In this document: one piece after another, positions 1 to 42,577 of the stretch
Position numbering within the stretch: position 1 is the stretch's first letter
How the letters are laid out: each line of letters opens with the position of its first letter
DNA from: a virus
Length of the DNA: 42,577 nt
IMG/VR virus record: IMGVR_UViG_3300005731_000036
Location: 1-42,577 of that record
Strand: one strand, 5' to 3'
Program-made: the position numbers and the translations under genes
The notes under the pieces: generated by a model
Database searches by the model: none
The model's input: the letters and a program-made list of their open reading frames with translations, nothing else
What the model was told of the DNA's origin: nothing

Positions 1-39
1 AAACATGCCATATCCATCAAGCGGCGGAACAGGCGGTGG
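1..39. repeat. Terminal direct repeat, left copy
   Basis: The first 39 bases are identical to the last 39 bases of the window. A short exact overlap that falls inside a gene is what an assembler leaves when it opens a circular or circularly permuted genome, so the two ends should be joined and one copy dropped. It is unlikely to be a biological terminal repeat: it is very short, it splits the start of a small gene, and it is far from the terminase genes. Confidence 0.9.
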
Positions 40-52
40 CGGGTTTAGCGTC
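5..52 (+). pseudogene. 5' fragment of a small structural gene split by the HNH insertion
   Basis: An ATG (also present at 42543 across the circle joint) follows a good ribosome site, AGGAG, ten bases upstream at 42530-42534. It opens a Gly/Ser-rich frame beginning MPYPSSGGTGGGGFSV. The start resembles that of the preceding gene (MTYPAAR..., also Gly-rich). After codon 16 the frame runs into the antisense HNH gene and would stop at 131-133. If everything between the two GCGTC copies (48-52 and 629-633) is removed, the frame continues into the 3' fragment at 634 and gives a 58-residue protein. Either the gene is broken, or the insert is removed at RNA level. The function is unknown; its position suggests a head or virion protein. 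Confidence 0.6.
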
Positions 53-617
53 ATTGAGTCCTGCCATGATTTGGATGAAAGCCGTGCATTTTCTCTGCGG
101 CTTTCCTCGCTTCTATGGCGTCTTTCTTGTTAATGTAATGGCCTAAGCTAACACGCTTGCCGTTTGAATTTATGTAGGCCCACCATTTTTTGCTGCGCTT
201 ATAGAACGAAACACCTGGAACCCCTGATGTGCTATCCGTCCTGAGCTTTGCATTCTTTGAGTTTCCAGATGAATCAACATCCCTGAGATTTTCAACCCTA
301 TTGTCAGATGTCTCTCCATTGATGTGATCAATCACCCCAACCGGGTCTTTGCCCGTGTGCAACTTCCAAACAATTCTGCTTTTTACGAACTCTTCAGATA
401 GTATTGTGCCTTTTGTCCTGCCGTTTCTGTCTGCGTAATTAAAGCACTCTTTCCCAGCATATAAAGAGTTCCACAGAGAGCATATATGCTCAGCGCTTCT
501 AGACGCGCTTGCTTCAAACATATCTGGGGTTCTTGGCCTCCAGTACAGTTGCCACGTCACTGGATCATAGCTCAAAAGCTTGCGAAGTGTTTCGATTGAT
601 GGTAATGGCTTGGCCAT
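51..617 (-). CDS. AP2-HNH homing-type endonuclease (antisense insertion)
   Basis: A 188-residue protein with an HNH_3-type core near residues 95-125 (VIDHINGETSDNRVENLR) and an AP2-like DNA-binding domain near 130-180 (SGVPGVSFYKRSKKWWAYI). This is the usual architecture of free-standing phage homing endonucleases, which cut a target site and copy themselves in. AGGAGG lies five bases before the ATG. It is the only leftward gene in the head-tail region and sits within a small rightward gene; its stop codon is completed by the target bases TCA. It is a distant paralogue of the HNH gene between the terminase and portal genes. It probably has no structural role. Confidence 0.88.
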   Translation of the reverse strand: MAKPLPSIETLRKLLSYDPVTWQLYWRPRTPDMFEASASRSAEHICSLWNSLYAGKECFNYADRNGRTKGTILSEEFVKSRIVWKLHTGKDPVGVIDHINGETSDNRVENLRDVDSSGNSKNAKLRTDSTSGVPGVSFYKRSKKWWAYINSNGKRVSLGHYINKKDAIEARKAAEKMHGFHPNHGRTQ

Positions 618-633
618 CGGAGCCTCCTGCGTC

Positions 634-762
634 GGTTCTGGTCACAACCCCGGCTGTTGGCGCAGCGCGGGGCCTTTTTATTATAGCATGAACCGTTGTT
701 GTGTGGCAACATATGGCAGCAGCCGCGTTATCATTGAGTACATCTCGCCGGAGGAAAACTAA
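634..762 (+). pseudogene. 3' fragment of the HNH-split small gene
   Basis: An open frame of 42 codons without its own start, rich in Cys, Tyr and Ser, ending ...VIIEYISPEEN. Its stop TAA overlaps the ATG of the next gene as TAATG, the junction style used by many genes in this genome, which suggests that this frame was or is translated. Joined at the GCGTC repeat it is in frame with the 5' fragment. A terminator-like hairpin lies inside it. Homologues in phages without the insertion would settle whether it is a pseudogene. Confidence 0.5.
648..680 (+). terminator. Terminator-like hairpin with T-run
   Basis: CCCCG-GCTG pairs with CAGC-G-CGGGG around a six-base loop with one bulged G, followed by CCTTTTTATT. 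It looks like a strong rho-independent terminator on the rightward strand, but lies within the 3' fragment of the split gene and upstream of essential tail genes. If it works, it acts as an attenuator or needs a downstream promoter or antitermination. The fit could also be chance in a coding stretch. Confidence 0.5.
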
Positions 763-1247: not shown

Positions 1248-1636
1248 TGCCATACACGATCACGGTGACAGAAGTTAAGGATGGATTCACAAGCGCCGCG
1301 AGCGATGCGGATCTTGCTAACTATATTGTCTTCGCGGATCAAGCAGACCCATGCCTGACGATGAACAGCGTACCAGATGAGATTGGGCAGCAGCTCAAGA
1401 TTCTGTACGTCAGGCATGTGGCAACCAACCAGAGGGACGGTGGCGCTGTAACAAGCGAAAGAGCCGTTTCTGGGGCGTCCAGGTCATATGCTGAGTATGA
1501 GAGCGGTCACACTGGCTATCTCGACACTCTGCGCCAGTTAGATCAATTCGGCTGTGTATACGGACTCGCGTCCAATAACGGGTTTATCCAGCTTCGCAGC
1601 TCAGGGCGCAGACCGCAAAGGACTTCGACCTACTGA
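1247..1636 (+). CDS. Head-tail connector / head completion protein
   Basis: A 129-residue protein. The N-terminal part (TDADLANYIVFADQ-like helices with 'ASDADLANYIVFAD') and the C-terminal patch (DTLRQLDQFGCVYGLA...IQLRSSGRR) resemble adaptor proteins that dock beneath the portal in siphoviruses. It starts at a TAATG overlap and ends as TGATGG with the next gene, consistent with translational coupling. The order connector, stopper, gp10-like, tail terminator, tail tube is standard. The function rests mainly on gene order. Confidence 0.6.
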   Translation: MPYTITVTEVKDGFTSAASDADLANYIVFADQADPCLTMNSVPDEIGQQLKILYVRHVATNQRDGGAVTSERAVSGASRSYAEYESGHTGYLDTLRQLDQFGCVYGLASNNGFIQLRSSGRRPQRTSTY

Positions 1637-2336: not shown

Positions 2337-2731
2337 GTATTTCACTACTACAGCGCATGAGGACTCACCTAGACGCAGGCGGCTTGCTTGATGGGTATCA
2401 GGTGAAGTACTACCAGTGGAGCGACCAGGATCTAAATGGCGACGGTCAGGTGATTGTATTTCGAATGACTGGCACAGAGGGCCTTGGAGCACATGTCATC
2501 CAGTCTCCGGATATCAGCATTCAGATGCTTTGCTCACCATCCCAGGTTAAGGCCGGTGATGAGCGTATGCTGCAAATTCTGCAATACCTCAGAGCCAACT
2601 TTGAAACAGACAACTCGTTTGGCGAGGTGTTTAACATGTGGCCCGTTGGCACCGTAACAGGCCCAACGTTCCTGCAAAACAAAAGAGCGCGGTTCGAGCT
2701 GATAGTGAGAACCATGGTCACAGATCACTAA
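2333..2731 (+). CDS. Tail terminator protein
   Basis: A 132-residue protein in the gene position immediately before the major tail protein. The layout (N-terminal helix LLQRMRTHLDAGG, a central strand with VIVFRMTGTEG, and a C-terminal strand FELIVRTMVTDH) fits tail terminators of the lambda gpU / phage minor tail type, which cap the growing tail tube. It is coupled to the gp10-like gene by an ATGA overlap. A gap of 71 bases with a promoter follows. Confidence 0.6.
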   Translation: MSISLLQRMRTHLDAGGLLDGYQVKYYQWSDQDLNGDGQVIVFRMTGTEGLGAHVIQSPDISIQMLCSPSQVKAGDERMLQILQYLRANFETDNSFGEVFNMWPVGTVTGPTFLQNKRARFELIVRTMVTDH

Positions 2732-2743
2732 GATCGCGATATG

Positions 2744-2772
2744 TTGCGCTGCGGTCTATGTAATGATATAAC
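2744..2772 (+). promoter_or_regulatory. Sigma70-like promoter before the tail tube gene
   Basis: TTGCGC, a 17-base spacer and TATAAC lie 31 bases upstream of the major tail protein start, in one of the few real gaps of the late region. A dedicated promoter would raise expression of an abundant virion protein. Inference from consensus match only. Confidence 0.5.
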
Positions 2773-2802
2773 ACTGGAAAGCGCACAAAAGAGGGCTTAA
2801 AT

Positions 2803-3207
2803 ATGTCTGGATTTGCTGGCCGTCGGTTGCGGCTTGAAATTGACTTCGGTAGCGGTTTTGTTGATGTGGGTGAAGCCCAGACCAACAGCTTCACAATCAA
2901 CCGTGAATCTATTGATGTCACGACCAAGGAAGATGACGGGGTTCGTCGCTTGCTTGCTGAGACTGGAACTTTCTCTGTTGATACGAGTGTTGAGGGCGTC
3001 CTAAAGGACACTACAATTCTTGCTATTGCCGTTGACCCAACTCAAACCACCCTTGTTTCCGCTCGCTTGCTCATCGCTGGCCTTGGCACAATGACTGGGG
3101 ATTGGTTTATGGGTAACTTTGAGTCCAGTGGCGCAGAAGGAGCTGAGGCTATCACCTTCACCGCAAACCTGATGTCATCTGGAACCGTCACCTTCGTTGA
3201 AATTTAA
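2803..3207 (+). CDS. Major tail tube protein
   Basis: A 134-residue protein with the pattern of siphophage tail tube subunits: a beta-rich N terminus (GRRLRLEIDFGSGFVDVGEA), a motif close to INRESIDVTTKEDDG, and a C-terminal strand GTVTFVEI. The segment with 'S.D.T...D.G....L' is typical of the TP901-1/HK97 tube family, which polymerises around the tape measure protein. A ribosome site AGAGGG lies upstream and a promoter precedes the gene. The tail chaperone pair and the tape measure gene follow in the expected order. Confidence 0.85.
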   Translation: MSGFAGRRLRLEIDFGSGFVDVGEAQTNSFTINRESIDVTTKEDDGVRRLLAETGTFSVDTSVEGVLKDTTILAIAVDPTQTTLVSARLLIAGLGTMTGDWFMGNFESSGAEGAEAITFTANLMSSGTVTFVEI

Positions 3208-3216
3208 GGATTACTT

Positions 3217-3552
3217 ATGAGCGTTTTTCGCACTAGCCAAATTGAATGGAAGGGGGAGGCATATGACGTCACCCCCTCCATGTCTCTTCTCAGCAAGATT
3301 GAGCAAAGCGGCAAGAGCCTTGTAGGGATTGCCAACATGGCAGCCAAAGGAAGCCCGCAAATTGCCTTGATGTCAGAGGTTATGGGGCTTGTGATGCGTA
3401 GCGCAGGTATTTCCGTTACTGATGAGGAGATCTATAGCGAGGCAATGTCAGGCTCTCCAACTGAGGTTTTGGCCCTGTGGAACTCTATCTTTGTGATGAT
3501 TAGCCCTATGCCTGCTGAAGGAAAAAAGCCAGACGCCCCAGAAGCAGAATAG
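3217..3552 (+). CDS. Tail assembly chaperone, G-type product
   Basis: A 111-residue protein, the zero-frame product of a gene with a programmed frameshift. It has a mostly helical composition and a short acidic/Pro-rich tail (EGKKPDAPEAE) that begins at the slippery site. Its place between tail tube and tape measure genes is the fixed location of tail chaperones, which hold the tape measure protein during tube assembly. Most ribosomes would stop at 3550-3552; a minority would shift to give the 199-residue product. Confidence 0.82.
   Translation: MSVFRTSQIEWKGEAYDVTPSMSLLSKIEQSGKSLVGIANMAAKGSPQIALMSEVMGLVMRSAGISVTDEEIYSEAMSGSPTEVLALWNSIFVMISPMPAEGKKPDAPEAE
3522..3528 (+). promoter_or_regulatory. 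Programmed -1 frameshift slippery site A AAA AAG
   Basis: The heptamer A AAA AAG is in the correct phase (GGA AAA AAG) for -1 slippage, the same heptamer as in E. coli dnaX. After slipping, the frame stays open from GCC at 3528 to the stop at 3813-3815. The zero frame stops 24 bases downstream of the heptamer. Frameshifting at this place is a conserved feature of long-tailed phages. Confidence 0.85.
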
Positions 3553-21674: not shown

Positions 21675-21687
21675 AAGTCTCTCCATG

Positions 21688-21712
21688 GTTGGTGTTAGGC
21701 TGGGGAAGGGTG
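21688..21712. repeat. 25-base direct repeat, copy 1
   Basis: The 25 bases starting GTTGGTGTTAGGCTGG and ending GAAGGGTG recur exactly at 21974. Each copy sits just upstream of a leftward gene, before the ribosome site. This suggests duplication of a regulatory leader or a module boundary. Confidence 0.85.
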
Positions 21713-21958
21713 TTATTCTTTGTCAAAGCCAAAAATGACTGGACGGTGGCTTGATGCCATCATGACCGTCTCTAGACACGCTGTTACAGGCTTTTGCATA
21801 TCCGCGTAAATAGCCCTTACAATTGAATGAAGCTCTGCATGGAAGAGTGATGCCTCCCGCCGATCCTCTGGCATCCACCTCTCAACGAAATCTGCAATCC
21901 TATGGTTCAAAATATCCTCTTCCTGTTTATCTCTCATTTTCGAAGTGGCAGTTTCCAT
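21713..21958 (-). CDS. Hypothetical helical protein
   Basis: An 81-residue, charged, mainly helical protein (KMRDKQEEDILNHRIADFVE). The ribosome block GGAGAGAGAGTTATGG is identical to that of the next gene upstream. It lies between the two 25-base repeats. Family not recognised. Confidence 0.6.
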   Translation of the reverse strand: METATSKMRDKQEEDILNHRIADFVERWMPEDRREASLFHAELHSIVRAIYADMQKPVTACLETVMMASSHRPVIFGFDKE

Positions 21959-21973
21959 AACTCTCTCTCCTTA

Positions 21974-21998
21974 GTTGGTGTTAGGCTGGGGAAGGGTG
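21974..21998. repeat. 25-base direct repeat, copy 2
   Basis: Exact copy of the repeat at 21688, placed between the first and second genes of the leftward block. Confidence 0.85.
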
Positions 21999-22002
21999 GA
22001 GA

Positions 22003-22212
22003 TTAGTACGTCAAAACGCACTCATAAACAGCAATTCCTGCAATAGGAGTATTCTCATCGCAAAACGAAACCATCGCCATAGATGCCGCCTCATGGGCCG
22101 AATTTGCATCGTTAATTAGTTCTGTTTTTTGATACCCGTTCTGCTTATCTGGTGTAACAAAGCTTGCGGTGACGCGATACTTTACGCTGCTGTGACTGTT
22201 GTGCTTTTCCAT
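22003..22212 (-). CDS. Hypothetical protein, first of the leftward block
   Basis: A 69-residue protein, alpha/beta by pattern: KYRVTASFVTPDKQNGYQKT, a helix DANSAHEAASMAM, and a final strand GIAVYECVL. That fold pattern recalls small phage proteins of about 70 residues with no assigned function. A leftward promoter lies just upstream. Shares its ribosome block with the next gene. Confidence 0.6.
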   Translation of the reverse strand: MEKHNSHSSVKYRVTASFVTPDKQNGYQKTELINDANSAHEAASMAMVSFCDENTPIAGIAVYECVLTY

Positions 22213-22237
22213 AACTCTCTCTCCTTTTGCTACTCAA

Positions 22238-40824: not shown

Positions 40825-41226
40825 ATGGCAATCCCCTACTGGTTCAGAGATGGCACAGCCCAAGACAGCACAACTATCCTGCCGGTAGCGGGAAACCCAA
40901 CTTATACCATTACAGGAATGGACCTGACATATTCGATTGGTAACTGCGTGGTTATCTTTACCGATGCGTCAGGGACACCTGTAACCCCAACTGGTGGAAC
41001 TATCCGTTTCGAGGCTACCCCCATTGAAGGTCAGTGGCTGGAGCCTCCCGCTGAAATGACGATTGACGCAACCACAGTTATTGCTGCCTCTGATGGCGGG
41101 GGAACTGGGCTGGCGACCTATACGCTGCCCTCCTTTGACGGGCCAGTCCAGGCGGCTCGCATTATCCTAACCGGAGTGACAGGGGCAACTCATGTCCGCT
41201 CATATCACTGGCGAGCCAGCACTTGA
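40825..41226 (+). CDS. Hypothetical virion protein
   Basis: A 133-residue, beta-rich protein (YWFRDGTAQDSTTILPVAGN; then GGTIRFEATPIEGQWLEPPA), likely a single Ig-like or jelly-roll domain exposed on the particle. Three bases separate it from the preceding gene, and it overlaps the next start by TTGA. No family assigned. Confidence 0.6.
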   Translation: MAIPYWFRDGTAQDSTTILPVAGNPTYTITGMDLTYSIGNCVVIFTDASGTPVTPTGGTIRFEATPIEGQWLEPPAEMTIDATTVIAASDGGGTGLATYTLPSFDGPVQAARIILTGVTGATHVRSYHWRAST

Positions 41227-42530
41227 CCTATCCGGCGGCAAGAAACAGGCGGCGCAGGGGGCCATCTTATGGCGGTGGCTCCGGTGGTTCTGGGGTTTGC
41301 TCTGGCGCTTCCCCGGCCTTGCTGCACCTCGACCCTGTGGCAAACCGCTATTACACGCGCACAGATGGGCAGATTGGGGTTACATCTCACCCCTTTGCGG
41401 ACCTGCTGACCTTTACTGGCCCAGCGGGGCGAACCTACGTAAACGCAGCGGGGCGGATCGTCACCGCTGGTTTGAATGTGCCTAGGATCGAAAACTATAT
41501 CGACACGGGGTCTGGACTGTTTAACGCAGGACAGTTGTTTGAAAGTGAAGCGCGTACTAACCTTATAATCCGTTCCGAAGAATTTGACCTGTGGGGCGGC
41601 GGGGGAGCGGTCACGGTTACAACCAATACCCACATTTCCCCAGACGGAAATATGACCGCAGACACGCTAACCTCTGGCGGTGGTTCTACCGACTTTCTTA
41701 TCAGGAGTGGTGTTGCAAGTGACGGGCAGGTCAAGTCTATGTATGCAAGAACTGTATCGGGAACCGGAACGGTTGCAATTCTAGGCCACAACTCAGTTGG
41801 TGCAGCGCTAACTACCCTTACCGAGGAATGGCAGCGGTTTGACCTGCCCGTAGATACCGCAGAGACAGGTGGCACAAATTTCTACGCTGTGGATTTCAGG
41901 GCCGGTGATCTTACCGAGATTGTTGTCTGGGGAGCGCAGCTCGAAACCGGGGAAAACCCCAGCTCGTACATCGAGACTGAGGCGGCTGCCGTCACCCTAG
42001 CCGGTGAGACCATGCAGATTGATCCAGCAGTTTTGCAAGCGGCCCTTGGCGTAACCATGCCTGCCGCCTTATCGGGCGCGATGAGCACCTACATAACTTA
42101 TGCCGACTTGAACGCTGCCAATCAGGTCACGATATACGACCACAGGGCAGATGCAAACAACCGCATGACGGTCACTCTCAGCACGGACGGGGCAAGCACT
42201 GGCCTGTTTACCTTGACAATGGTCAATGGTGGCGTCTCGGCCTCTGTTTCTGCTCCGGTGCAGATCATGCCTGGAACAAACGTGGCCGCGAATGTTGCAT
42301 GGTATGCAGACGCCGCAGGGATAAACATTGCGGTGAACGGTTCCGCTGCAACCGAGGTGGCAACCGCCATAGGGTTGCCAAATTTGATTGGTGCCGATGT
42401 TGATCTAGCGACCGACTTTAACGGCAGCATTTTACATACCACAATCACTGCTGACAATCTGGAAGTCGCAGGCATTCAAGACGCAACAACTACCGGCTCT
42501 GGGTTTAACCCCCTGTGTCCATTCGACTAG
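41223..42530 (+). CDS. Head spike/fibre-like protein with carbohydrate-binding pattern
   Basis: A 435-residue protein. After a Gly/Arg-rich N terminus, residues 35-230 show a pattern common to phage spike and lectin-like proteins: FESEARTNLIIRSEEFDLWG, then SPDGNMTADTLTSG and VVWGAQLETGENPSSYIET. The C-terminal 180 residues are another beta sandwich. It may bind polysaccharide from the head surface. TTG at 41223 overlaps the previous stop; the N terminus resembles that of the next small gene, which supports this start although the ribosome site is weak. Confidence 0.7.
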   Translation: MTYPAARNRRRRGPSYGGGSGGSGVCSGASPALLHLDPVANRYYTRTDGQIGVTSHPFADLLTFTGPAGRTYVNAAGRIVTAGLNVPRIENYIDTGSGLFNAGQLFESEARTNLIIRSEEFDLWGGGGAVTVTTNTHISPDGNMTADTLTSGGGSTDFLIRSGVASDGQVKSMYARTVSGTGTVAILGHNSVGAALTTLTEEWQRFDLPVDTAETGGTNFYAVDFRAGDLTEIVVWGAQLETGENPSSYIETEAAAVTLAGETMQIDPAVLQAALGVTMPAALSGAMSTYITYADLNAANQVTIYDHRADANNRMTVTLSTDGASTGLFTLTMVNGGVSASVSAPVQIMPGTNVAANVAWYADAAGINIAVNGSAATEVATAIGLPNLIGADVDLATDFNGSILHTTITADNLEVAGIQDATTTGSGFNPLCPFD

Positions 42531-42538
42531 GAGTAAGT

Positions 42539-42577
42539 AAACATGCCATATCCATCAAGCGGCGGAACAGGCGGTGG
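42539..42577. repeat. Terminal direct repeat, right copy
   Basis: Identical to bases 1-39. The ATG at 42543 is the true start, with its ribosome site upstream, of the small gene that continues at base 5. Confidence 0.9.

Follow-up and report, generated by a model that had tools for sequence, protein, structure and literature searches.

A probable free-standing homing-endonuclease cassette with a conserved leader lies antisense in the start of a phage appendage gene

Results

The window, by which we mean the whole stretch of 42,577 nucleotides analysed here, is a circular phage genome, as bases 1-39 are repeated exactly at 42539-42577. At its left end, a plus-strand frame opens at position 5 with the 16 codons MPYPSSGGTGGGGFSV (5-52). 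Because the genome is circular, this frame has a true Shine-Dalgarno sequence (SD), AGGAG, at 42529-42533 across the circular join, in agreement with the ribosome site that the initial annotation had placed in front of it. An antisense ORF of 188 amino acids occupies 51-617 on the minus strand behind its own SD (GGAGG, 623-627, minus strand), and the next virion gene, of the phrog_22694 family, lies on the plus strand at 762-1247. The SD of this next gene (GGAGG, 750-754, plus strand) is overlapped by the codons 'EEN*' of a plus-strand open frame, and the stop TAA of that frame (760-762) overlaps the ATG at 762, the TAATG coupling described previously. Elsewhere in the window, a region of short ORFs (21678-22226) contains repeated copies of TCTCTCC.T...GGCTGGGGAAGGGTG (35 nt) and TTTCCATAACTCTCTCTCCTT (21 nt), which are possibly repeated regulatory sites.

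The antisense ORF had been called an AP2-HNH gene, and domain searches agree. It matches HNH_3 at 44.7 bits (cut-off 24.8) and phrog_99 at 1e-52, with AP2 at 27.8 bits, under that model's cut-off of 33.3. The gene is intact, with its DHINGE motif present, and its C-terminus, HPNHGRTQ*, matches the HPNHGRTA* of Sulfitobacter phage phiGT1. Its G+C content is 45%, against 52% for the window. It stands outside any intron or intein, being antisense to the interrupted gene, and Rfam returned no match in positions 1-2000 at E<=1, intron core RNA and symR (RF01809) included. By its HNH_3 and phrog_99 matches, the product is a predicted free-standing homing endonuclease.

The 16 codons to its left resemble a known gene start. 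A family of phage appendage genes, 150-600 amino acids long and present at the equivalent position in other phages, begins with MPYP..GGxGGGGF. The same N-terminus (MPYPPRGGIGGGAGFTLG.., MPYPRAGGGGGSGFSLG..) occurs in L103, L105 and L093, and L095 and L094 have related forms. The window gene at 40825-41226 (phrog_25621) has homologues in Vibrio phages and an uncultured phage, and directly after the homologue a gene starts with MPYSGSGGGG (L094), MPYNRRSGGGSGFELGP (L095) or MPYPPRGGIGGGAGFTLGPAQN (L103); similar gene starts are MPYPRAGGGGGSGFSLGP (L093), MPYPGLIGGGGGGFTLGPAQN (L105) and MPYPRPGEGG (L006). One large gene lies between the phrog_25621-type gene and the MPYP gene in L006, L093 and the window (41223-42530). 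When DNA patterns for this N-terminus were searched in viral contigs and genome contigs, they recovered true relatives in the former (L103, L105 and L112) and had no match in the latter. The window has the N-terminal motif, the SD and the position after a phrog_25621-type gene, and, judged by these features, the left 16 codons form a genuine gene start, the 5' remnant of a virion-appendage gene. A six-frame search of the window did not recover the body of the family (GPxQNxF...RAAAExxRDxY...), and the most plausible interpretation of the appendage gene is a truncated remnant with 16-18 codons left. The MPYP..GGG N-terminus is also seen on appendage-type genes with quite different bodies (L006, L093, L103, L105 and L118), and is possibly a virion-attachment tag.

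On the right, the minus strand carries a sigma70-type promoter (680-709) that agrees with the consensus at 11/12 positions, TTGCCA-18-TATAAT, and has an extended -10 (TGcTATAAT). Starting from this -10, a conserved leader (635-688, minus strand) comprises a stem-loop with the hexaloop CGCCAA and a TGACCAgAAC box. The stem-loop itself, GGCCCCG-C-GCTG-CGCCAA-CAGC-CGGGGTT, spans 646-674 on the minus strand; on its own strand the leader matches no Rfam family. The elements follow the order -10, stem-loop, CTAACC-like box, SD and ATGGCT, with TGACC and ATGGCC as the variants of the window. Read on the plus strand, 646-680 is a stem-loop followed by TTTTT (CGGGGCC-TTTTT), a terminator-like arrangement for rightward transcription that could exert polarity on the gene at 762 and those after it. 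We set aside the idea that the stem-loop is a mere plus-strand terminator, since on the minus strand it is placed where the transcript should start, and sense-oriented genes have it conserved as well.

The initial annotation noted that GCGTC flanks the gene, at 48-52 and 629-633, and that deleting one copy with the intervening DNA gives MPYPSSGGTGGGGFSV|GSGHNPGCWRSAGPFYYSMNRCCVATYGSSRVIIEYISPEEN*, 16 and 42 codons in frame; both observations are correct. From them it derived two alternatives, the first being that the HNH gene was recently and precisely inserted at GCGTC, breaking up an intact 58-codon gene. The in-frame join, with an SD in front and TAATG behind, would fit such an event. The join also places a G and an N as in the appendage family (GSGHN against GPAQN), and against the appendage-family model the joined protein reaches 10.1 bits, a score attained by only 2.6% of random right halves. 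We take the G/N agreement as a coincidence. A few host codons to the right of 633 remain conceivable, given that 2.6%. The GCGTC pair is a chance occurrence. The motif occurs 48 times in the window; repeats of at least 5 bp linking both flanks number 11, against 8.5 in shuffled flanks, and 4 of the 11 give an open frame. Each of the 47 in-phase joins that we tested reads through to the TAA without a stop, so the in-frame GCGTC join is no evidence for that border.

The contents of the flanks also argue against an exact interruption. The insert had been said to hold only the HNH gene and its ribosome site, yet the supposed second exon contains both the HNH promoter (709-680, minus strand) and the leader stem-loop (674-646), and the right GCGTC copy sits just upstream of the HNH SD, within the 5' UTR of that gene. 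Promoter and conserved leader overlap 25 of the 42 right-hand codons, and with 618-709 apparently given over to the promoter and structured leader, these codons are probably largely noncoding. A phage search for relatives of the joined protein returned only a chance match, and the relatives that do share the MPYP N-terminus are far from 58 residues in length. The 58-residue gene is without support, and we consider insertion at GCGTC into such a gene improbable. What stands of the precise insertion is that an HNH cassette was inserted in the start of a real gene; its borders are other than the GCGTC repeats.

The same in-frame junction, and nothing else, speaks for the second alternative, an intervening sequence removed at the RNA level. 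The antisense ORF makes up about 97% of the proposed insert, too much for a ribozyme to fit beside it, and this antisense gene is served by a promoter of its own. Rfam gave no match, intron or other, in positions 1-2000 at E<=1. An intron-like reading is hardly tenable.

In a homologue alignment, the order -10, stem-loop, SD and ATG is common to the leaders of HNH homologues, namely those of Paracoccus phage KLEP18-1, Sulfitobacter phages phiGT1 and pCB2047-A, Rhizobium phage RHph_Y1_10 and contig L059/L155. L156, found later by protein search alone, has the same leader order. HNH relatives inside operons (L147, L152, L153, L154 and others) are without the leader. A descriptor consisting of the stem, the hexaloop CGNYAA and the inner stem matched 7 of 3120 upstream regions, six of them belonging to HNH genes, with one leader counted twice via a second ATG. 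We then built a covariance model, R1, from six leaders with the window left out. It gave a single match in the window, at 688-635 on the minus strand (32.2 bits, E=7e-6).

R1 also found new leaders in L145 (the second HNH gene of phiGT1), L045, L054 and L053, where the ORFs after the SD are zinc-finger/HNH-like, and in L084 at E=0.7, where the ORF behind the leader has a LAGLIDADG-like stretch and no Pfam match. A second, stricter model, R2, did not report the window at E<=2 and added L060, L063 and a second L084 site, before ORFs of the same kinds. In the A11 alignment, whose structure was partly chosen from those same sequences, pairing is 97%, 6 of 10 pairs are changed on both sides, and 0 of 500 shuffles reach this pairing. 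The second codon is GCT in 21 of 23 leaders, across unrelated proteins. In alphaproteobacterial phages, sequence comparison places the promoter/stem-loop/CTAACC/SD/ATGGCT leader in front of genes for at least two types of nuclease, and the alignments show it as a conserved element tied to predicted endonuclease genes. Homing-endonuclease-type ORFs follow the leader in the window, L145, L146, L149, L150, L155, L156, L045, L053, L054, L060, L063 and L084.

Sulfitobacter phage phiGT1 (MT584811) has the same leader as the window at both phiGT1_9 and phiGT1_12, and gp9 is an HNH_3 protein 45% identical to the window HNH. The sister cassette, phiGT1_12, is present in phiGT1 and absent from pCB2047-A. 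The two phages align at 70-75% on either side of a single point, where phiGT1 has 669 extra bases, and this insert (L145, 2561-3229) is exactly a promoter, the leader (2583-2640) and the HNH ORF (2662-3228). Both phiGT1_9 and phiGT1_12 are in sense orientation and lie between genes, whereas the window cassette is antisense inside a gene. By analogy, the window cassette would begin at the HNH stop (51) and end either close to the -35 (709) or at the right copy of TCATTGAGT (739).

The second of these borders comes from the longest flank-to-flank repeat, the 9-mer TCATTGAGT, whose only two window copies lie at 51-59 and 731-739 on the plus strand. It could be a target-site duplication or a microhomology scar around a 680-bp insert, with the empty-site product MPYPSSGGTGGGGFSVIEYISPEEN (25 codons). 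The join there is likewise in frame and the insert would include the whole promoter, with the right copy as the outer candidate for the right border. The repeat has a P of about 0.035 by shuffling. Its left copy also encodes the HNH C-terminal TQ* (TA* in phiGT1), and may belong to the cassette; moreover, the phiGT1 cassette starts close to its -35, and an equivalent border in the window would fall near 709. We regard the TCATTGAGT border as doubtful, though worth keeping in view. As no cassette-free close relative was found, the borders in the window and the ancestral gene are not fixed. Close relatives of the window phage were found neither among phages by DNA, nor in viral contigs by three proteins, nor in genome contigs. 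Capsid alignment yielded 80 distant contigs (46-53% identity), none of which matched the joined protein or the neighbour gene at 762-1247.

We also looked for the leader in bacterial genomes. At E<=0.01, R2 matched 11 of 385 genomes of the alphaproteobacterial class and 4 of 355 of the Acidovorax class, where chance alone would give about 3.7 in either sample. These bacterial matches are weaker evidence, a modest excess over chance. No HNH relatives occurred in the 385 genomes of the alphaproteobacterial sample. Small ORFs starting MA[KTSDN] lie behind the leader in six bacterial sequences (L161, L165, L167, L168, L169 and L170) and in a viral contig (L181); the bacterial ones that were scanned had no Pfam match.

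In L167, the strand antisense to the leader (1470-1547, plus strand) gives a full-length match to symR (RF01809) at 39 bits (E=2e-4). Like the SymR RNA of the SymE/SymR system (PMC1891008), it has two stem-loops and the complement of a start codon at its 5' end. It differs in that 39 bits is below the Rfam cut-off of 61, only one leader shows the match, and no SymE-like protein accompanies it. The leader may act as an mRNA-protecting 5'-terminal stem, serve as a binding site for a protein, or pair with a cis-antisense RNA; this last role is suggested by the L167 match together with the terminator-like CGGGGCC-TTTTT on the plus strand of the window.

Discussion

Collectively, our data make it likely that the locus is a free-standing homing-endonuclease cassette of about 660-690 bp (51 to 709-739), inserted in antisense orientation into the 5' part of an appendage gene that it truncates. 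The cassette would consist of an extended -10 promoter, a structured leader, an SD and the HNH_3-AP2 ORF. By the precedent of the T4 mob and seg genes (PMC2988022), the HNH protein would nick or cut the cassette-free allele, and repair would copy the cassette in. The leader may set nuclease expression independently of the surrounding operon, and the remainder of the appendage gene would have been lost during the event or later.

This arrangement has partial counterparts. The Aeh1 system likewise places an endonuclease gene, with a hairpin leader, inside a phage gene. There, the host gene stays functional in two pieces, whereas in the window only a short 5' remnant of the host gene is left. The free-standing HNH and GIY-YIG endonucleases of T4-like phages (mob, seg) stand alone between conserved genes under their own regulation, and several have RNA hairpins near the SD; in seg43(25) of Aeromonas phage 25, a stable hairpin lies upstream of the SD, which is not sequestered (PMC2988022). 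The window resembles these systems in being a phage-borne, stand-alone nuclease gene with its own regulation and a hairpin near its SD. It differs in its HNH_3-AP2 subfamily, its antisense orientation and its sigma70-type, rather than T4 late, promoter, and its leader is common to different nuclease families.

More tentatively still, the leader may be a portable RNA control device, possibly involving a SymR-like cis-antisense RNA that ends at the stem-loop. It would have been captured independently by unrelated endonuclease families (HNH_3-AP2, His-Me/zinc-finger HNH and possibly the LAGLIDADG-like ORF) in alphaproteobacterial phages and be shared with small host genes, acting as a type I antitoxin-like brake on selfish nucleases. 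We offer this as speculation.

Stand-alone homing endonucleases are common in phages, but what is known of how they regulate themselves comes chiefly from T4-like phages. The locus carries a warning, in that an open frame across a cassette (42 'codons' here) need not be coding. The leader provides a practical mark for recognising endonuclease cassettes and, if our reading is true, nuclease genes would move as units of promoter, leader and ORF with one shared control mechanism.
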